From: a virus
Virus record (IMG/VR): IMGVR_UViG_3300045941_000172
Coordinates: 1-31,224 of that record
Strand: one strand, 5' to 3'
DNA: 31,224 nucleotides
In this document: positions 524 through 30,500 of the stretch, piece by piece
Layout of the letters: the number at the start of each line of letters is the position of its first letter
Numbering within the stretch: position 1 is the first letter of the stretch
The notes under the pieces: model-generated
What the model was told of the DNA's origin: nothing
What the model saw: only the letters and a program-made list of their open reading frames with translations
Database searches by the model: none
Made by a program: the position numbers and the translations under genes

Positions 524-2156
524 TACCCGGTGGAAGGCGCTTCTGGGCCTGCTGCCCGGCTACGACCCGTTCCGCCTGGCCGGCGACTCCTGGTTCGACC
601 GCCGGGAGGCGAAGCGGGCGCTGGACTTCATTAGCGAGTGCGTCCGCCACGTCGAGGGCGCCCTGGCCGGCGAACTGCTGGCGCTGGAGCCCTGGCAGCG
701 GTCGGCGGTGGCGAACCTCTTCGGGTGGCTGCGCAAGGACGAGCGGGGGCGGGTGGCGAGGCGCTACCGCGAGTGCCTGGTCTACGTCCCGCGCAAGAAC
801 GGCAAGACGCCGCTGGGCGCCGCCGTCGCCCTTTACGTCTTCTTCTGCGACCGCGAGGCCGGCCAGCAGAACTACGTCGCCGCCGCCGACCGCGAGCAGG
901 CGAGCATGCTGTTCCGCCAGGCCCGCGGCATGGTCGAGCAGGAGCCCGAGCTGGACTCCCGCTGCAAGGTCTACGGCGGCTACGCCGCGGGCGGGCAGTC
1001 GCGGTCGATCGTCCGCGAGGAGGACGGGTCCTTTCTTCGCGTGGTCAGTGCCGACGCCGACACCAAGCACGGCGGCAACTCCCACCTGGTGCTGGTGGAC
1101 GAGCTGCACGCCCAGCCCAACCGCGACCTCGTGGACGTGTTGCAGACCAGTATGGCCAGCGCCAACCGACGCCAGCCGCTGCTGATCCACTTGACCACCG
1201 CCGACTTCCGGCGCGAGAGCATCTGCAACGAGAAGTACGAGTACGCCTGCAAGGTCCGGGACGGCGTGATAGCGGACCCGACTTTCTTGCCAGTCATCTA
1301 CGAGGCCACCGACGCCGACGACTGGACCGACCCGGCCGTCTGGCGGAAGGCCAACCCGAACCTCGGCGTGTCGGTGTCGCTCGAATACCTTCAGCGCGAG
1401 TGCGCCCGCGCGAAGGAAGTGCCGGCCTACGAGAACACGTTTCGACGGTTGCACCTGAACCAGCGTACCGAGACCGACACCCGCGCCATCCCCATGGACC
1501 GCTGGGACGCCTGCGGCTCTGCGCCCGTGGACGCCGACTCACTGGCCGGCTGCGAGTGCTACGCGGGCCTCGACCTGAGCACGACCACCGACCTGACGGC
1601 CTGCGTGCTGCTGTTCCCGCGCGAGGACGGCGGCTACACCGTGCTGCCGCACTTCTGGGCGCCCGAGCAGAAGGCCCGCGAGCGCTCCAAACGCGACCGC
1701 GTGCCCTACGAGTTGTGGGCCAGGCAGGGGCACGTCACCCTCACCCCCGGCGACGTGGTGGACTACGACCGCGTGCGGGCCGACATAAACGCGCTGGGCC
1801 AGCGTTACCGCATTCGGGAGGTCGCCGCCGACCGCTGGAACGCCACCCAGATCCTTACCCAGCTCCAGGGCGACGGCTTCGACGTGGTCGCGTTCGGCCA
1901 GGGCTACCAGTCGATGACCGCGCCGACCAAGCGCCTGCTCGACCTGGTGACCGCCGGACAGCTGAATCATGGCGGCAACCCGGTGCTCCGCTGGATGGCG
2001 AGCGTATTCGCGACCGAGCAGGATGCCGCCGGCAACCTGAAACCCTCCAAGAAGAAGTCGACCGACCGGATCGACGGCGTCGTGGCGACCGTGATGGCCC
2101 TCGGGCGGGCGATGCTCGCGCCGGTGGTGGGGGAGATGAGCGTGGAGGTGTGGTGA
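495..2156 (+). CDS. terL: Phage terminase large subunit
   Basis: This is the ATPase/nuclease of the head-filling motor (553 aa from the chosen start). The Walker A-like loop PRKNGKT lies at about residues 99-105 and Walker B LVLVDELHA at about 198-206, with D202/E203. The C-terminal RNase H-like nuclease shows its first Asp in YAGLDLSTTTDLTA (D360) and the last in DRIDGVVA (about D527). This is the HK97-type terminase (Terminase_1) arrangement. No ATG exists near the N-terminus. GTG at 495 has GGGGAGG seven bases upstream, so I chose it over an extended frame beginning at 390, which would run through the small-subunit gene. It overlaps terS by 29 bases, and its stop shares bases with the portal start (TGATG), suggesting translational coupling. 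Confidence 0.92.
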   Translation: MGRPASSQPSTRWKALLGLLPGYDPFRLAGDSWFDRREAKRALDFISECVRHVEGALAGELLALEPWQRSAVANLFGWLRKDERGRVARRYRECLVYVPRKNGKTPLGAAVALYVFFCDREAGQQNYVAAADREQASMLFRQARGMVEQEPELDSRCKVYGGYAAGGQSRSIVREEDGSFLRVVSADADTKHGGNSHLVLVDELHAQPNRDLVDVLQTSMASANRRQPLLIHLTTADFRRESICNEKYEYACKVRDGVIADPTFLPVIYEATDADDWTDPAVWRKANPNLGVSVSLEYLQRECARAKEVPAYENTFRRLHLNQRTETDTRAIPMDRWDACGSAPVDADSLAGCECYAGLDLSTTTDLTACVLLFPREDGGYTVLPHFWAPEQKARERSKRDRVPYELWARQGHVTLTPGDVVDYDRVRADINALGQRYRIREVAADRWNATQILTQLQGDGFDVVAFGQGYQSMTAPTKRLLDLVTAGQLNHGGNPVLRWMASVFATEQDAAGNLKPSKKKSTDRIDGVVATVMALGRAMLAPVVGEMSVEVW

Positions 2157-5104
2157 TGTACGGCGTCAGCGTCACGACCGGGTACGGGCCGTCGGCCTAC
2201 CGGATCGAGGATCGCGTCACGCAGCCCGCCGACCAGGTCGGCGACGGGCACTCCGCCGCCCTGGCCTACGCCTACGAGTACCTCGGCTGGGGCGACGCCT
2301 ACCGCGAGGACCGCATCACCGCCGAGACGGCGCTCACCTACAGCGCGTTCTGGGGCTGCGTGCGCGTCATCCTCCAGGCGATCTCCCCCCTCGGCTGGGG
2401 CGTCTTCGAGAAGCGCCCCGACGACCCCCGGACCAAGCTCCCCGTCGAGGACGACGTCGCGTGGCTGCTCGGCATGCAGGCCAGCCCCGAGATGTCGGCG
2501 CTCGACTGGCGGCAGGTGATGCTCTTGCACGCGCTGATCCGCGGCAACGCCTACGCCGAGATCGAACGCGACGGCTTCGGCCGGCCCCGCTGGCTGTGGT
2601 GGCTGGCAACCGAGCGGGTGACGCCGACCCGCCTGGACTCCGGCCGGTTCGCCTACGAGGTGGACAACGGCGTCTCCAGCCCCAAGGTCGTGATCCCGCC
2701 GGAGAACATGTTCCATTTGAAAGGCATGGGGCCGGACGGGCTGGTCGGCTACTCGGTCGTCGAGATGGCGAGACACACCATCAAGCTCGGCAAGCAGGAG
2801 GAGCGCTTCGGAAGCTCGTACTTCGGCAAGGGGCCGATGCCCGGCGGCATCCTGAAGATCCCCGGCAGCGTCTCCCCGGAGGCCAAGTCGCAGGCCCGGC
2901 GGTCGTTCGAGGAGACCTACGGCGGCACGGCCAACGCCGGGAAGGTGGTGGTGCTCACCGGCGGCATGGAGTTCACCCCGCTGTCGCTCCCCAACGACGA
3001 CGCCGAGTTCCTCGACTCACGCCTATTTCAGATAGAAGAAGTCTGTAGATGGTTCGGTGTACCTCCCCACAAGGTAGCGGACCTGGCCCACGCGACGTAC
3101 TGCCTGCCAGCGGGGTCGCTGGTGTTCACCCCTGGCGGTCCCGTGCCAATCGAGTCGGTGGCGGCGGGCGACCTGGTGTGGAGCATGGATGGGTCGAAGC
3201 GCATGGTAACCTCCCGGGTGGAGGCGTCCGGCCGTTCCGGGCGGGACGAGGTGCTGACCGTCCGGACCCGCAACCGCGTACTGAGGTGCAACGCCCGGCA
3301 CCGCGTCCTGGTGCGCCGGCAGACGCTCTCGCCGTCGGCGGGCGGGCGCGGGAGTCACGTCGTCGTCGGCGGGGTGAAGTGCCGCCGGGCGTGGTCGGAG
3401 GCGTGGGTGGCCGCGGGCGAGCTGCGGGAGGGCGACGCGCTCGTCAGCCTGGCCGGCCTGCCCGACCCGGGGGGCTCGGAAGCGCCGACGCGCGAGGCGA
3501 CCGTCGGGTTCATGGAGGTGCTGGGCATGCTGACCGGTGACGGGTTCTTTGCCCGCAACGCCCGATCGGGGCGCGGCACGACGTTCGGCATCTCCCACGG
3601 CGAGGACGACGCCTACCTGCCGCACTACGTCCAAACGGTCGAGCGGGAGTTCCGCCAGTACGACGGACCTTACGGCAGAAAGAACGGCGGGACGTGCGAG
3701 CTTACGGCCGTCCGCCGCGACAAGAACACCACCGTGTTCTACTCCGGCCTGGCCTACGACGAGTTGGAGGCATGTGGCGTCGTCGGCACGTCGAAGACGA
3801 AGCGGGTGCCGGGGTGGGTGTTCGGCCTGCGGGAGGAACTCCGCCTGGCGTTCCTCCGCGGCTTCCTCGATGCCGACGGCACCGTGACGAAGAACGGCCA
3901 GGTGCGGTTCGTGTCCGTCAACCGCATGCTGATCGAGCAGGTGCGGCACCTCTGCATCAGTTGTGGCGTCCGGGTGGCCAACCTGTATTCGGACAGGATC
4001 AAGAGCAAGTTCGAGGGCTACCCGGAGTACGAGCACGTCCTCTACTCGTTCATCTGCACGGACGCGAAGGAGAACCGGCGCATCGGCTCGCACACCCCGT
4101 GGTACGTCGATCGGATCGAGCAGCGCCTTGCCTCCCGGAGGGTGCGCGACCGGGACACGATCCGACCTTACGAGATTCGCGAGCGGCAGGCGGCGGACGG
4201 GTTGCTCGCCTCGCAGATTGTGTCCATCGTTCGCTCGGAAACGCCGGAAGACGTGTTTGACCTAACCGTAAGCGGCACACACACTTTCGTCGCCGACGGA
4301 CTGGTGGTTCATAACAGCAACATCGAGGAGCAAGAAATTGCCTTCGTCCGTGACTGCCTGCTGCCGTGGTGCCGGCGGCTGGAGATGGAGGCGGACATCA
4401 AGCTGTTCGGCCGCACCAACCGCGGCCGGCGGTTTACGCGGCTGAACCTCGACGCGCTCCTGCGCGGCAACTCCCAGACCCAGACCACCACGGTGATGCA
4501 GAAGGTGACCGGCGGCGTGCTGACCATCAACGAGGGTCGGGAGTACTTCGACCTGAACCCGATCGACGGCGGCGACACGCCGCTGGTGCAGGGCGCGATG
4601 GTGCCGCTGGAGCGCGTGCTGGAGGAGCCCGAGCCGCCCCCGCCGCCGGCCCCGCCCGCGCCGCCGCCGGACGAGGAGGAGGAAGACGACCCGAACGCCG
4701 ACAGCGCGGACGCCGACAACGCCAAGGGCGAGGGGAAGGCCGCCGAGAACACGGCGGAGGTGCGGCGGGTGTTCGGGGCGCTGCTGGAGGACGCATTCAT
4801 GCGACTGCTGCGCGTGGACGCCGACAAGGCGAAGCGTGCCGCCAACAAGGGCAAGCTGGCCGAGCACCTGGAGGAGTATTACGACGACGAGGCGGCTGGC
4901 CGAGTCGCCGTCGTTCTGGGGCCGTTGTTCGAGGGGTTGTATTTAGTGACGGGTGGCACGCCGGTGCTGCCGGTCAACGCGACGGCGGCCATCGCTGCCG
5001 TTATGCACGTCGAGTGGTGCAGGGAGTGGTTCGCCGCCCGCCTGGACGGCTGGGAGTCGCGCCCGGCCGAGGCCGCGCGCGAGGTACTGGAGGGGCTGTC
5101 ATGA
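2156..5104 (+). CDS. Phage portal protein (HK97 type) containing an intein
   Basis: This 982-codon frame encodes a portal protein interrupted by a 405-aa intein at residues 316-720. After splicing the portal would be about 577 aa. Portal hallmarks before the intein are TAETALTYSAFWGCVRVI near residue 60, LHALIRGNAYAEI, and the FQIEEVCRWFGVPPHKVADL segment. The intein follows HATY, and the chain resumes with SNIEEQEIAFVRDCLLPW, which is exactly the continuation seen in uninterrupted HK97 portals. The mature C-terminus has a Pro/Glu-rich linker (about residues 823-845) and a further helical domain of about 140 residues, longer than many portals. ATG at 2156 overlaps the terL stop. An open frame continues upstream to 638 but that part is a shadow of terL. 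Codons just upstream of the intein are atypical (see findings). Confidence 0.93.
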   Translation: MYGVSVTTGYGPSAYRIEDRVTQPADQVGDGHSAALAYAYEYLGWGDAYREDRITAETALTYSAFWGCVRVILQAISPLGWGVFEKRPDDPRTKLPVEDDVAWLLGMQASPEMSALDWRQVMLLHALIRGNAYAEIERDGFGRPRWLWWLATERVTPTRLDSGRFAYEVDNGVSSPKVVIPPENMFHLKGMGPDGLVGYSVVEMARHTIKLGKQEERFGSSYFGKGPMPGGILKIPGSVSPEAKSQARRSFEETYGGTANAGKVVVLTGGMEFTPLSLPNDDAEFLDSRLFQIEEVCRWFGVPPHKVADLAHATYCLPAGSLVFTPGGPVPIESVAAGDLVWSMDGSKRMVTSRVEASGRSGRDEVLTVRTRNRVLRCNARHRVLVRRQTLSPSAGGRGSHVVVGGVKCRRAWSEAWVAAGELREGDALVSLAGLPDPGGSEAPTREATVGFMEVLGMLTGDGFFARNARSGRGTTFGISHGEDDAYLPHYVQTVEREFRQYDGPYGRKNGGTCELTAVRRDKNTTVFYSGLAYDELEACGVVGTSKTKRVPGWVFGLREELRLAFLRGFLDADGTVTKNGQVRFVSVNRMLIEQVRHLCISCGVRVANLYSDRIKSKFEGYPEYEHVLYSFICTDAKENRRIGSHTPWYVDRIEQRLASRRVRDRDTIRPYEIRERQAADGLLASQIVSIVRSETPEDVFDLTVSGTHTFVADGLVVHNSNIEEQEIAFVRDCLLPWCRRLEMEADIKLFGRTNRGRRFTRLNLDALLRGNSQTQTTTVMQKVTGGVLTINEGREYFDLNPIDGGDTPLVQGAMVPLERVLEEPEPPPPPAPPAPPPDEEEEDDPNADSADADNAKGEGKAAENTAEVRRVFGALLEDAFMRLLRVDADKAKRAANKGKLAEHLEEYYDDEAAGRVAVVLGPLFEGLYLVTGGTPVLPVNATAAIAAVMHVEWCREWFAARLDGWESRPAEAAREVLEGLS
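3101..4315 (+). mobile_element. Intein with LAGLIDADG homing endonuclease, inserted in the portal gene
   Basis: In-frame protein-splicing element of 405 residues between portal Tyr315 and Ser721. Seen directly: Cys1 with block A (CLPAGSLVF and later VAAGDLVW), block B LRCNARHRVLV with conserved His67, two LAGLIDADG motifs (LGMLTGDGF, Asp147; FLRGFLDADG, Asp257/Asp259), a KRVPGWVF block D between them, block F VFDLTVSGTHTFVADG, and the terminal VVHN with His404-Asn405 followed by Ser. These are the residues needed for the class 1 splicing pathway and for a two-motif homing nuclease, so the element looks intact. Odd point: block B normally reads TxxH, but here Asn64 stands in place of Thr. The nuclease would be expected to cut inteinless portal genes at the ATY|SNIE codons. 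Confidence 0.93.
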
Positions 5105-5775
5105 CCGCCAAGCAAGCGATCGTCCGCATGAAGACTGACGACGTCGCCGAGGTGCTGGTGTACGACCAGATCGGCCGCGACCCGTGGTTCGGCGAGGGGA
5201 TCAGTGCCAAGGAATTCCGCGCCCAGGTGAAGGCCATCAAGGCGAAGACGCTCAATCTCCGCATCAACTCCCCCGGCGGCAGCGTCATCGAGGGCGCAGC
5301 CATGCTCAGCGCGCTCGACGAATTCAAAGGAGACATTGAGGCCGACGTGGACGGCCTCTCTGCCAGCGCCGCCAGTGTGCTGATGATGGGCGCCGACGTG
5401 ATCCGGGTCGCGTCGAACGCGCTGGTCATGATCCACGACCCCAAAGCCGGCGTGCTGGGCGGCGCCGAGGACATGCGCCGGCTGGCGGACCTGCTCGACA
5501 AGGTCAAGGGGCAGGCCCTCGACGCCTACGAGCGGCACTCGAAGGCCGGCCGCCAGCAGCTCGCCGACTGGATGGCGGCGGAGACCTGGTTCACCGGCGA
5601 GGAGGCCGTCGAGGCAGGGCTGGCCCACGAGGCGACCGCGCCCGTGGCGCTGGCAGCCCTGGCCGGCCACGGGGCGTTGATGGCCAGGCTGGGGTACAAG
5701 CCGCCGGTCACGCCGGCCGACCTGCTGGCCGCGGAGGAGACCCGTAAGCGGAAAGAGATCGCGACGCTGTTGTGA
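5101..5775 (+). CDS. Prohead maturation protease, ClpP-like (S14)
   Basis: 224-aa serine protease that trims the scaffold (delta) domain from capsid subunits during prohead maturation. The ClpP fold is visible from LRINSPGGSVIEG (residues 53-65), the nucleophile context GLSASAASVLMMG (catalytic Ser89), and the His context NALVMIHDP (His112). The C-terminal half continues with the conserved ETWFTGEEAVEAGLA segment (about 161-175). This is the normal length for phage ClpP-type head proteases. The ATG overlaps the portal stop as ATGA. The order portal, protease, capsid is the canonical HK97-type head cassette. Confidence 0.92.
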   Translation: MTAKQAIVRMKTDDVAEVLVYDQIGRDPWFGEGISAKEFRAQVKAIKAKTLNLRINSPGGSVIEGAAMLSALDEFKGDIEADVDGLSASAASVLMMGADVIRVASNALVMIHDPKAGVLGGAEDMRRLADLLDKVKGQALDAYERHSKAGRQQLADWMAAETWFTGEEAVEAGLAHEATAPVALAALAGHGALMARLGYKPPVTPADLLAAEETRKRKEIATLL

Positions 5776-5782
5776 CGCGGAC

Positions 5783-5811
5783 TTGACGTGGTCGGACCAC
5801 TTTGGTAGCCT
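5783..5811 (+). promoter_or_regulatory. Candidate capsid promoter with internal palindrome
   Basis: TTGACG at 5783-5788 (5 of 6 consensus) and TAGCCT at 5806-5811 (T, A and final T match) are 17 bp apart, in the gap between the protease and capsid genes. Most of the spacer is a perfect 13-bp palindrome, GTGGTCGGACCAC (5788-5800), a plausible operator that could occlude polymerase. The -10 match is modest, so this is a prediction. A separate promoter for the most abundant virion protein would make sense. Confidence 0.42.
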
Positions 5812-5866
5812 GTTCACCATCGGGACAGCGCCCGTCGGGCCACGTCCCACCAAACCAACAGCAGAG

Positions 5867-5916
5867 ACGACCCTCGTTGACGGTCGGATCGCGAGATCCA
5901 ACCCGACGAGGGTCGT
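5867..5916 (+). promoter_or_regulatory. Long hairpin in the capsid mRNA leader, burying the ribosome site
   Basis: A 50-nt element that ends one base before the capsid ATG. The outer stem pairs 5867-5877 (ACGACCCTCGT) perfectly with 5906-5916 (ACGAGGGTCGT) and is extended by a G-U and a G-C pair. After a 2-nt bulge there are three more pairs, one mismatch, and the stem GGATC/GATCC (5886-5890/5895-5899) capped by a GCGA (GNRA) tetraloop. The only Shine-Dalgarno-like run, GAGGG at about 5908-5912, is inside the outer stem, so translation should need unfolding or a bound factor. The pairings are read directly; the regulatory role is inferred. Confidence 0.75.
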
Positions 5917-5917
5917 G

Positions 5918-7294
5918 ATGTTCCCGCTACAAGCGCTCCAGCAGGAGCGAGCCCATAAGGCCCTGAGCGCCAAGGACGTCGTCGAACGCGCCGAGAAAGA
6001 GAACCGGCCGATGACGGCCGACGAGGTGGCGCTCTTCGACAAGCTCAAAGAGCAAATCGACGCCCTTGACACGCAGATCAAGGGCATCCAGACGCACGCC
6101 GACCGCCGGACCAAACTGGAGGCCACACTCGACGAGCTGGCGAAGCCCGCCGGCACCGAGTCGAAGCCCCAGCCGGTCGCGGCGCAGAACACCGGCACCC
6201 GGCCGGCAATTATCCCCCACGGCCACACCCGGCCGATGCGGGCGTTTCCCCGCACCGCCGAGGGCATGGAGTCGGCCTACCGCTCCGGGATGTGGCTCCG
6301 GGCCGCCATCCTCGGCGACCAGCGGGCGGCGCACTGGTGTCTCAACCACGGCGTCGGCACCGACATTCGCAACGCGCTGGGCGAGAACGTCAACAGCGCG
6401 GGCGGCTATCTGGTACCTGAAGAATTCTCTAGCCGGATCATCGACTTACGCGAGTCGTATTCGGTCTTCAGGCAGAACTGTTTCGTCCAGCAGATGGGGC
6501 GCGACACCATGGTGGTGCCCCGCCGGCTGTCGGGCGTGTCGATCACCGCGGTCGGCGAGAACCCCGCCAGCGCCATCACGCAGTCGCAGCCGGCGTGGAA
6601 TCAGGTGCGACTGACCGCCAAGAAGGCCGGCGGGTTGTGCCTGATGTCGAGCGAGGTCAGCGAGGACGCCGTCATCGACCTGGCCGACATGCTCGCCGAC
6701 GAGTTCGCCTACGCCTTCGGCCTGTTCGAGGACCAGTGCGGGTTCATCGGCACGGGCACCTCGGCCTACCTCGGCATTCGCGGGATCACGGACATTCTGA
6801 AGGCGGGCCAGTCGCTGGCGGGCGCGGTGGACGCCGCCAGCGCCCACGACACGTTCGCCGAGATCGACGCCACCGACCTGCAAACCGCGATGGCCAAGCT
6901 CCCCGAGTACGCCCGCATGGGGGCCAAGTGGTACTGCTCGGCGGTCTGCCTGGACATGGTCTTCGGCCGCCTGATGGCCGGGGCCGGCGGCAACACCATT
7001 CAGGACATGCAGGGCGGCTACGGCCGGTCCTACATGGGCTACCCGATCGTCGTGAGTCAGGTGCTGCCGACCGCGACCACCGACCTGTCGGACGTGGCGA
7101 TGCTGCTCTTCGGCGACCTGAAGAAATCGAGCACGCTGGGCGACCGCCGCGACATGCGGGTGTTCCCGTCGGAGCACCGCTACATGGACACGGATCAGAT
7201 CGGCGTCCGTGCGACGTGCCGGTTCGACATCGTGAATCACGACTACGGCGACGCGACGAACGCCGGACCCATTGTGGCCCTCGTGGGCGAGTGA
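5918..7294 (+). CDS. Major capsid protein, HK97 fold
   Basis: 458-aa coat protein that builds the icosahedral head. Residues about 1-75 form a charged helical/coiled-coil delta (scaffold) domain (ERAHKALSAKDVVERAEKEN onward). Next is a flexible Pro-rich linker (about 80-110), where the ClpP-like protease would cut. The mature part carries the family motif GGYLVPEEFSSRI near residue 163, plus the E-loop and P-domain segments, and ends GPIVALVGE. The size is right for an unprocessed HK97-type subunit. ATG at 5918 is chosen because a longer frame would start with TTG at 5783 and translate the promoter and leader hairpin. Codons for the GGYLVPEEF region (about 6405-6470) are unusually AT-rich for this gene. 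Confidence 0.93.
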   Translation: MFPLQALQQERAHKALSAKDVVERAEKENRPMTADEVALFDKLKEQIDALDTQIKGIQTHADRRTKLEATLDELAKPAGTESKPQPVAAQNTGTRPAIIPHGHTRPMRAFPRTAEGMESAYRSGMWLRAAILGDQRAAHWCLNHGVGTDIRNALGENVNSAGGYLVPEEFSSRIIDLRESYSVFRQNCFVQQMGRDTMVVPRRLSGVSITAVGENPASAITQSQPAWNQVRLTAKKAGGLCLMSSEVSEDAVIDLADMLADEFAYAFGLFEDQCGFIGTGTSAYLGIRGITDILKAGQSLAGAVDAASAHDTFAEIDATDLQTAMAKLPEYARMGAKWYCSAVCLDMVFGRLMAGAGGNTIQDMQGGYGRSYMGYPIVVSQVLPTATTDLSDVAMLLFGDLKKSSTLGDRRDMRVFPSEHRYMDTDQIGVRATCRFDIVNHDYGDATNAGPIVALVGE

Positions 7295-21859: not shown

Positions 21860-22587
21860 AGCGATCCACGGTGTTGCTGGTCTGTCTGCTGTGCTCCGCC
21901 ACCGTGCGGGGCCAGACCGTTACGCTACCCGAGAAGGTGCTCATCCCCAACGGCCGGCTCGGGTCGGTCCCGATCGTGTACGAGGGGGACGATGTCAAGT
22001 GGACGGCGTCCCCCGAGCTGGACGTTTTTAGGGAATACGACGCCGACCCGAAGAAAATTCGCCTGCGCGTGATGGCGCACCAGGACGGGGTCTATTACGT
22101 CAAGGCCATCGCCTGCAAGGGCGGCAAGATGTCGGAGTTCGCGACCTGCGACGTGGTCGTGGGTGTGCCGGGGCCGAAGCCGCCCGACCCCGGACCCGGA
22201 CCCGGTCCCAAGCCGCCCGACCCCAAGCCGCCCGGACCCGGACCCGGACCCGAGCCGTCGCCGTTCCCGGACCCCGGCGTGCGGGTGCTGGTCGTCTACG
22301 AGACCGGCCAGGAAGGCGCCCTGCCGCGCTACGTCCACACCAAGGCGTTCGCCAACGCCCTCGACAACAAGTGCGCGCTCGGCCCCGACGGCAAGACCCG
22401 GGAGTGGAGGATCTGGGACAAGGACGTCAACACGTCCAAGGCCCCGAAGATCTGGCAAGACGCCATGGCCCGGCCGCGGGCGAGCGTGCCCTGGCTGCTG
22501 ATTGGCGACGGCAAGACGGGCTACGCCGGGCCGCTGCCGAAGACGGCGGAGGAGTTCGACAACCTGCTGAAGAAGGTGGGTGGGTGA
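21856..22587 (+). CDS. Secreted protein with Pro/Gly-rich linker
   Basis: 243-aa protein. The signal peptide is KRSTVLLVCLLCSATVRG, with probable cleavage before QTVTLP. Residues about 20-105 are a beta-rich domain (VLIPNGRLGSVPIVYEG and the following strands). Residues about 107-142 are a striking Pro/Gly/Asp/Lys linker of repeated PGP, KPPDP and GPGPGP units. The C-terminal domain (VRVLVVYETGQEGALPRYVHTKAFANAL) resembles a small thioredoxin/GTPase-like alpha-beta fold but has no clear catalytic motif. The GTG overlaps the previous stop. Such proteins are frequent in Gemmata-like genomes, so it may have been taken from the host. Confidence 0.62.
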   Translation: MKRSTVLLVCLLCSATVRGQTVTLPEKVLIPNGRLGSVPIVYEGDDVKWTASPELDVFREYDADPKKIRLRVMAHQDGVYYVKAIACKGGKMSEFATCDVVVGVPGPKPPDPGPGPGPKPPDPKPPGPGPGPEPSPFPDPGVRVLVVYETGQEGALPRYVHTKAFANALDNKCALGPDGKTREWRIWDKDVNTSKAPKIWQDAMARPRASVPWLLIGDGKTGYAGPLPKTAEEFDNLLKKVGG

Positions 22588-23399
22588 TGGGCCAGATCGT
22601 CATCAACGATAGCAACTACCAGAACTACATCCAGCCGTGGGTCGGCTACGACGGCACCGACCGGGCCAAGGGCCTGATCCCGCGCGACTACCAGTCGCAC
22701 CCCGTGGGATACCTCGGGCCGGTCGCCAGCCCGTTCGACTCGTCGCTACTCATCCCCGAGAGCGAATGGGACGAACGCATCCGCGAGCAGGACGCGGCGG
22801 AGTCGAGCCTGTTCCACCTCCGCAACCGGGGCAACGCGGGCAGTCAAATTCAGAGCTATGACCAAAATGGTCAGGGTTACTGCTGGGCGTACAGCACCGT
22901 GGCCGCGGTGACGCTCGTGCGGGCCAAGAACCACCAGCCGTTCGCCCCGCTCAGCGCCCACGCCGTCGGCTGCAAGATCAAGAACTTCAGAGACGAGGGC
23001 GGGTGGAATTCCCTGTCGCTCCAGTTCGTCGCCGAGAAGGGCGTGCCGACCTGGACGTTCTGGCCGCCCAAGTCGATGTCGCGATCCTACGACACGCCCG
23101 AGACGTGGGCGAACGCACTCCAGAACCGCTGCACGGAGTGGTGGGACCTGTCCGACCGCGACGACGAGGTGCGGCAGCAGCTGGCCAGCCTGCTGCTCCT
23201 CAACGTCCCGGTGATGGTCGATTTCAACTGGTGGGGCCACTCGGTGTGCGCGGTGAAGCTCGTCAAGCGCAGCCCGTTCACCATCAAGATCTGGAATTCG
23301 TGGACGGACTCGTGGGGCGAGATGGGCATGGGCGACCTCGAAGGTAGAAAAGCCATCCCCGACGGGGCGATGGCCCCGCGCGTGATTTCCGCATCCTAA
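22587..23399 (+). CDS. Papain-like (C1) cysteine peptidase
   Basis: 270-aa protein with the complete papain active-site set: Gln93 and Cys99 in DQNGQGYCWAYST, His218 in WWGHSVCAV and Asn237 in IWNSWTDSWGEMGMG. The first ~85 residues precede the catalytic domain and may act as a propeptide or targeting part. There is no signal peptide. The ATG overlaps the previous stop (TGATG). Because it lies in the expected lysis position and no lysozyme, amidase or transglycosylase is visible nearby, it is a candidate lysis or cell-envelope-degrading enzyme; a role in virion processing or host-protein cleavage is also possible. Confidence 0.86.
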   Translation: MGQIVINDSNYQNYIQPWVGYDGTDRAKGLIPRDYQSHPVGYLGPVASPFDSSLLIPESEWDERIREQDAAESSLFHLRNRGNAGSQIQSYDQNGQGYCWAYSTVAAVTLVRAKNHQPFAPLSAHAVGCKIKNFRDEGGWNSLSLQFVAEKGVPTWTFWPPKSMSRSYDTPETWANALQNRCTEWWDLSDRDDEVRQQLASLLLLNVPVMVDFNWWGHSVCAVKLVKRSPFTIKIWNSWTDSWGEMGMGDLEGRKAIPDGAMAPRVISAS

Positions 23400-29601: not shown

Positions 29602-29913
29602 ATGGAATCCCACGACAGGCCGACATCCCTGGTCCTCTCCCGCCACCGCGGCGAGCGGCTGCGCATCGACTGCGCGGGCGGCGAGGTGATCTGGATCGAG
29701 GTGTCGGAGTACGACCGGGGCCGGGCGCGGCTGCGGATCGTCGCGCCCAGGAACACGATCGTAAGGCGTGAGGAGATTTGCGGGCACGACGAGCGGTTCG
29801 TCGAGCCTTCGGCCACGGGCGAGGCGCGGGCCTACGCGCCTGGCGCCGGAGTGGGCGGCGCCGGGGGGCCACCGGGGGACCCCCCGCCCGGCGACCAGCG
29901 GCGGCAACCCTGA
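29602..29913 (+). CDS. CsrA-like RNA-binding protein with low-complexity tail
   Basis: 103-aa protein. Residues about 10-60 follow CsrA: LVLSRHRGERLRI (CsrA LILTRRVGETLMI), IWIEVSEYDRGRARLRIVAPR and TIVRREEI (CsrA EVSVHREEI). Leu12 and Arg56 occupy the RNA-contacting positions of CsrA Leu4 and Arg44. The tail beyond residue 70 is Gly/Pro-rich. CsrA dimers bind GGA motifs in hairpin loops and control translation. It is preceded by AAGGAGGA, itself a GGA-rich ribosome site, so self-control is possible. Host copies exist in many bacteria, so it may be recruited from a host. Confidence 0.85.
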   Translation: MESHDRPTSLVLSRHRGERLRIDCAGGEVIWIEVSEYDRGRARLRIVAPRNTIVRREEICGHDERFVEPSATGEARAYAPGAGVGGAGGPPGDPPPGDQRRQP

Positions 29914-30083: not shown

Positions 30084-30500
30084 ATGACCACGACATTGGA
30101 CACGGAGTTTATGGGGCTGAGCGTCCGGGTGCGGAAGGCGATGCACCGACTGCGCGTGGACAGCATCGACAAGGTTTGCACGTTCGGCGGCGACGAGCTG
30201 CTTGAGCTGCGCAATTTCGGCATGTCCAGCCTGAACGAATTACGCGACTGGCTGGCGGAGAGGGGGAGGCACCTGCGCGGCGAGAAGCCGGCGACGGCCC
30301 CGCCGCCCCCACAACCCGCCGTCGCGCCCGGGTGTGAGCGGTGCCGGTTCTTCGACGTCGCCGGCAGCTCGTTCGGGGCCTGGGGCCTCTGCCGCCGGGG
30401 GATTCCGGTGGCCGGCCCGTCCGGGCAGGCGACGTGGCCGACGGTGAGGAGGGCCGACTGGTGCGGCGAGTTTCAACCCAAGCAAGGAGAGGACGCATGA
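30084..30500 (+). CDS. RNA polymerase alpha-CTD-like protein with four-Cys module
   Basis: 138-aa protein. Residues about 8-63 reproduce the RpoA C-terminal domain: MGLSVRVRKAMHRLRVDSIDKVC, DELLELRNFGMSSLNELRDWLAERG. Arg15 equals the DNA-contacting Arg265 of E. coli alpha, Gly46 equals Gly296 and Ser49 equals Ser299, but Asn268 is replaced by Lys18 and Lys298 by Ser48. After a Pro linker, residues 84-130 contain CERCRFF, GLCRRG, and DWCGEF, four Cys likely binding zinc. A free alpha-CTD can occupy UP elements or compete for activators. It is an early gene, so redirecting host polymerase is a reasonable idea but unproved. Confidence 0.82.
   Translation: MTTTLDTEFMGLSVRVRKAMHRLRVDSIDKVCTFGGDELLELRNFGMSSLNELRDWLAERGRHLRGEKPATAPPPPQPAVAPGCERCRFFDVAGSSFGAWGLCRRGIPVAGPSGQATWPTVRRADWCGEFQPKQGEDA

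Follow-up and report, generated by a model that had tools for sequence, protein, structure and literature searches.

The major capsid protein (MCP) is what a phage infection produces in bulk, and its control is usually ascribed to transcription and gene order. The locus described here raises the question of what a stable RNA hairpin is doing over the ribosome site of such a gene. The window, the whole stretch of 31,224 nucleotides that was analysed, is an IMG/VR virus record (IMGVR_UViG_3300045941_000172) and encodes terminase, a portal protein with an intein, a protease, the MCP, a connector, tail genes and an integrase. A leader of 142 nt lies between the protease stop codon (TGA, 5773-5775) and the MCP start codon (ATG, 5918-5920), and the locus has the following features.

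5101-5775, plus strand: upstream gene, read from its translation as a putative ClpP/S49-like head-maturation protease, with the start (MTAKQ) picked by eye.
5783-5811, plus strand: sigma70-like promoter, TTGACG-17-TAGCCT, predicted by promoter scoring.
5822-5848, plus strand: SL1, the first stem-loop of the leader (GGGAC...GUCCC), from the RNA fold of 5819-5935.
5849-5866, plus strand: A/C-rich linker, ACCAAACCAACAGCAGAG, almost wholly unpaired in the fold of 5819-5935.
5867-5916, plus strand: SL2, a hairpin that sequesters the Shine-Dalgarno (SD) sequence, from RNA folding and found also in the sister phages L005, L006 and L007.
5908-5912, plus strand: the SD sequence GAGGG, within the 3' arm of SL2 and paired in the ensemble.
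5918-7294, plus strand: MCP gene, HK97 fold family (PF05065, E 2.9e-36).

The initial annotation described a 50-nt hairpin at 5867-5916 with an 11-bp outer stem and an inner stem closed by GCGA, which ends one base 5' of the MCP ATG and buries the GAGGG, and folding confirmed every one of these details. The arms of the perfect outer stem are ACGACCCUCGU and ACGAGGGUCGU, and a U-G and a G-C pair extend it to 13 bp. It is followed by a 2-nt bulge (AC), a GGU/ACC helix, a C-A mismatch and an apical stem of 5 bp (GGAUC/GAUCC), which is capped by the GCGA tetraloop. SL2 ends at 5916 and only G5917 separates it from the start codon. The GAGGG is fully paired, with an unpaired probability of ~0.00 in the ensemble, and such pairing of the SD in a stable helix is a feature of SD-sequestering translational-control hairpins in general.

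The minimum free energy of SL2 is -34.5 kcal/mol (z -6.04), and none of 200 shuffled sequences folded as low. The hairpin is retained in the longer context 5776-5960 (z -5.2), the fold that the annotation had proposed as a check, and the fold of 5819-5935, which contains both SL1 and SL2, has a z of -5.3. Other 50-mers of this 69% GC window reach -33 to -37 kcal/mol, so the raw energy of SL2 is not unique and its test must be corrected for composition and aware of position. By these two measures, and not by raw energy, SL2 is distinctive: no other called gene start in the window lies below z -1.5, and the cost of opening the initiation region at MCP, 21.5 kcal/mol, is the highest of the 31 called starts, the next being 17.9. 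The similar raw energies of other 50-mers are what speaks for a chance hairpin of a GC-rich genome, a reading that is scarcely credible against a z of -6, compensatory changes in the sister phages, enrichment at MCP starts and clustering on the MCP tree, which are described below.

The predicted promoter at 5783-5811 has counterparts in the sisters, TTGCAT-17-TAGACT in L005, TTGACA-18-TAAATT in L006 and TTGCAA-17-TAGCAT in L007, so that a sigma70-like site is similarly placed in all four phages. The p values of these sites are 0.002 (window), 0.025 (L005), 0.002 (L006) and 0.057 (L007), combined 1.1e-5, from score weights that were chosen after the sequences had been seen; a generic promoter scan missed the 5783-5811 site. 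The linker between SL1 and SL2 is matched by likewise G-poor linkers in L005 and L006, and it is a possible ribosome standby site. Three other readings of the leader were rejected. Translation of the leader from TTG 5783, in frame with MCP, is ruled out by in-frame stops in L005, L006 and L007; a leader peptide from TTG 5877 ending in TGATG is not conserved in the sisters; and an intrinsic terminator has neither a U-tract nor a hit there in a terminator scan. A comparison with 4227 Rfam families gave no match in the whole window, none at E<=1 for 5700-5980 and none in six relatives.

The position of the promoter bears on the nearest known systems. In phage T4, hairpins of the genes e, soc, 49 and I-TevI sequester the SD or the AUG, and transcription from late promoters within the structure avoids it (PMC3014915). 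The likeness is that these genes also belong to a tailed phage and hold the SD, the start codon or both in a helix that lowers initiation; they differ in that none of them encodes a major capsid protein, and in that the promoter-like site here lies upstream, so the hairpin stays in the mRNA. A control of the gene e type, in which read-through transcripts would form the hairpin and a late promoter within it would yield a short, well-translated mRNA, shares the SD-sequestering anatomy (PMC3014915). It is nevertheless very improbable here, because the promoter-like site is ~49 nt upstream of the 5' arm of SL2 instead of inside the structure, likewise in the three sisters, and transcripts from it would carry the whole hairpin in all four. 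The split ribosome site of T4 genes 25 and 38 also has a stable hairpin near the start codon, but there the hairpin reduces the distance between the start codon and an SD that lies upstream, whereas SL2 itself contains the SD, and upstream of the hairpin no conserved purine-rich SD was found in L005, L006 or L007.

The sister MCPs are 63% (L005), 57% (L006) and 55% (L007) identical to that of the window, and in each of these phages the MCP start is directly preceded by a hairpin that carries the SD in its 3' arm. Two further records, L003 and L004, are identical over this stretch. The z values of the sister hairpins are -4.5 (L005), -4.3 (L007) and -2.1 (L006, -3.7 in its best window), and L005 and L007 carry an identical GAGGG in the 3' arm. 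The 5' arm keeps the motif CNUYGAY(N)GGUSGRA across the sisters, while the 3' arm changes in compensation. The annotation had named covariation in relatives as a check, and five pairs are indeed altered on both sides among the four sequences that make up the window's own clade, as counted by eye on a structure-based alignment. In the apical stem these are pair 2 (G-C to A-U), pair 4 (U-A, A-U and G-U) and pair 5 (C-G to G-C), and in the outer stem pair 3 (C-G to U-A) and pair 6 (G-C to U-A). Native arms fold better together than swapped arms (mean -27.6 versus -19.8 kcal/mol, p 0.04), with the exception of the 5' arm of L007 joined to the 3' arm of L005. Conservation and compensatory change together indicate a helix under selection. 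A DNA pattern search for the hairpin motif found L005 and L007 only, besides chance matches.

Further searches with MCP brought the set to about 230 loci. In many of them the MCP start directly follows a strong hairpin whose 3' arm or loop holds the SD, and the sequences of these hairpins differ, as in L179 (GCCGUCUCCG..CGGAGACGGC) and L022 (UAUCUCCCG..CGGGAGAUA); the loci L223, L225, L226, L227, L228 and L269 are further cases. A z below -3 combined with a paired SD was found in 25 of 106 MCP genes and in 21 of 494 non-MCP genes from those loci (p 3.6e-9), with one start-picking rule, a heuristic that favours SD-like motifs, applied to MCP and control genes alike. Among the 27 closest MCPs, a set defined by a 320-bit cut chosen after the fact, the hairpin is present in 15, against 6 of 157 other genes (p 1.6e-10). 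Several thresholds were set in the course of the analysis. On the tree of the 106 MCPs the hairpin label changes 13 times, compared with 34.3 times when shuffled (0 of 500 shuffles as low), a clustering to which near-copies add, and the window MCP falls within a group of nine rows that all have the hairpin. The hairpin is thus inherited along the MCP tree and specific to MCP starts, and MCP clades without it also exist. In L235-L259 a different hairpin, GAUCGGCC...GGCUGAUC, lies directly before the MCP start, and the start AUG can pair with an upstream CAU. A single-sequence search found no relatives close to the window MCP in bacterial genomes; profile matches in well-covered loci are at most 41% identical and include Planctomycetota bins, from which weak matches a Planctomycetota host might be guessed.

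The shape of the hairpin in these relatives bears on two rival explanations. SL2 could mainly serve to stabilise the MCP mRNA at its 5' end or be processed by RNase III, with SD burial secondary. The window would allow this, since it offers about 21 bp in broken helices (13+3+5) and a 5' end with two hairpins, but in most relatives the stems are only 7-10 bp, and what is conserved is the SD in a 3' arm that adjoins the start. Stems of that length are too short for RNase III, so the processing that the annotation had also suggested is unlikely as a shared function, and the explanation as a whole is quite improbable. The second explanation is autogenous repression, in which the hairpin would be bound by the capsid or a different head protein. 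Such repression is exerted by the RNA-phage coat protein, with the coat/replicase hairpin, and by T4 gp32 and gp43, through hairpin operators that like SL2 are situated close to or at the start codon of a structural or replication gene of the phage. Here, unlike there, the hairpin blocks the SD without help, its sequence varies, and the binder is hypothetical. On its 3' side the hairpin of the window, L005 and L007 has an A that is bulged or mismatched, a feature of the kind that proteins read, and the hairpin sits on the start of the very gene with which it is inherited; its loop and stem sequences, however, vary widely between clades. We know of no HK97-type capsid that binds an RNA operator, and binding by a head protein appears unlikely.

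The preferred reading takes SL2 for a translational operator acting in cis, one that by default holds MCP translation at a low level or shuts it off, and it is probably correct given the exact fold with its z of -6.0, the opening cost, the conservation in the sisters, the enrichment at MCP starts and the clustering on the tree. The translational control that the annotation had proposed is well supported in this respect, by the buried SD, by compensatory change in the sisters and by the strong excess of such hairpins at the MCP starts of this lineage over other genes. The annotation's description of MCP as the most expressed phage gene is an assumption. The MCP mRNA would carry its own 5' leader of ~100 nt, probably from the promoter at 5783-5811, and pairing of the SD in SL2 would keep access of the 30S subunit low by default. 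Use of the MCP site by a ribosome would then require that SL2 be opened or kept from forming. Candidate means for this are co-transcriptional timing, a 30S subunit on standby at the A/C-rich linker and an RNA-binding protein, and in relatives also competition for the 5' arm by a strand further upstream. Repression by SL2 in vivo, its being regulated and the agent that would regulate it are what we infer from the computed features. Against the operator count the stability of SL2, which should nearly abolish translation and is odd for a capsid gene, the upstream complementarity of the window, which is at background, and the MCP clades that do without the hairpin.

The competing upstream strand is the basis of another proposal, a four-strand RNA switch in which upstream folding or ribosome traffic would set access to the SD. 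Several leaders contain, further upstream, a strand complementary to the 5' side of their SD hairpin. Scored by contiguous helices, since RNAduplex comparisons of own and swapped strands were noisy from long internal loops, MCP leaders match their own upstream strands better than swapped ones (Wilcoxon p 1.5e-5), and other genes do not (p 0.77). Long perfect matches occur in L226 (11 bp), L268/L269 (10 bp), L028 (9 bp) and L225 (8 bp), and L005 has a match of 13 bp with G-U pairs. The switch is also supported by sub-clade F (L272-L310), in which three strands between -62 and the MCP start co-vary at two positions: an upstream strand GCCRGYCG, a middle strand CGRCYGGC and a strand after the SD. 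Among 27 variants the common form occurs 19 times, the A/U/A form 6 times and the U/A/U form once; upstream and middle strands pair at 8 of 8 positions in all 27, and middle and downstream strands at 5-6 of 6 in 26 of 27. This covariation fits two mutually exclusive folds, one of which would hide the SD. It recalls attenuators of the ermC type, which have four strands and likewise mutually exclusive pairings, one freeing the SD, but here no leader peptide was found and the pairing in the window is at background. The upstream match of the window is 7 bp with two G-U pairs, not above swapped controls (z 0.19), and SL2 alone is far more stable, so no switch is claimed for the window, and as an account of SL2 such a switch is unlikely. 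Some 90-75 nt upstream of the MCP start, sub-clade F also has a hairpin that resembles a CsrA site, with an almost invariant GGA loop and a covarying stem (CUUGA/UCAAG, CGUGA/UCACG, UCUCGA/UCGAGA).

A protein that might act on such leaders in trans is encoded in the window.

29602-29913, plus strand: CsrA-family protein of the phage, candidate trans regulator (PF02599, E 5.9e-9).

Its translation retains the VxREEI motif. A CsrA above the family cut-off is also found in 7 of 23 other records with a hairpin MCP, mostly of at least 39 kb, and in 0 of 17 virus records without the hairpin, an association (Fisher p about 0.014) that is confounded by record length. The proposal is that the phage CsrA binds the MCP leader and sets access to the SD, either repressing it or opening the hairpin. 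Leaders repressed by CsrA/RsmA are likewise structured, and sub-clade F, with its GGA loop upstream of an AGGAG SD, has a CsrA-like two-site layout. The window leader differs from them: it has no exposed AGGA-like site, the GGA of both SL1 and SL2 is paired instead of lying in a loop or single strand, and the SD, GAGGG, does not contain GGA. The SL2 of L006 has no GGA at all, exposed GGA sites are only slightly commoner in MCP leaders than in controls (0.61 versus 0.50 per leader), and L179, in a record of 46.8 kb, has the hairpin and no CsrA. Of the annotation's suggestion, the CsrA-like protein itself stands, while SL2 is a doubtful binding site for it. Because the window leader offers no good site, CsrA is kept as a rival to the preferred reading, a rather unlikely one.

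SD-sequestering hairpins are already known in phages, and an inherited one on the MCP gene of tailed phages appears to be new. This is provisional, since the literature search for capsid-leader hairpins in tailed phages, which found none, had partial open-access coverage. An inherited hairpin over the MCP ribosome site across a broad environmental phage lineage suggests that synthesis of the shell protein is gated at translation; the element is a concrete piece of RNA that can be tested with a reporter. The recurrence of phage CsrA in the same lineage points to a specific candidate regulator. A wider and speculative picture, held to be improbable, is an HK97-type capsid lineage with an inherited leader-RNA switch that would be toggled by upstream pairing and phage CsrA together and would time capsid translation.

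Three further genes of the window, all on the plus strand, deserve mention. The portal frame (638-5104) contains an in-frame intein with LAGLIDADG and Hint/intein-splicing domains, and a papain-family cysteine protease domain (PF00112, E 3.8e-7) is encoded at 22371-23399. A small protein at 30084-30500 has an RNA polymerase alpha C-terminal domain (PF03118, E 6.3e-9), which is unusual in a phage, and it is a possible transcription modifier.
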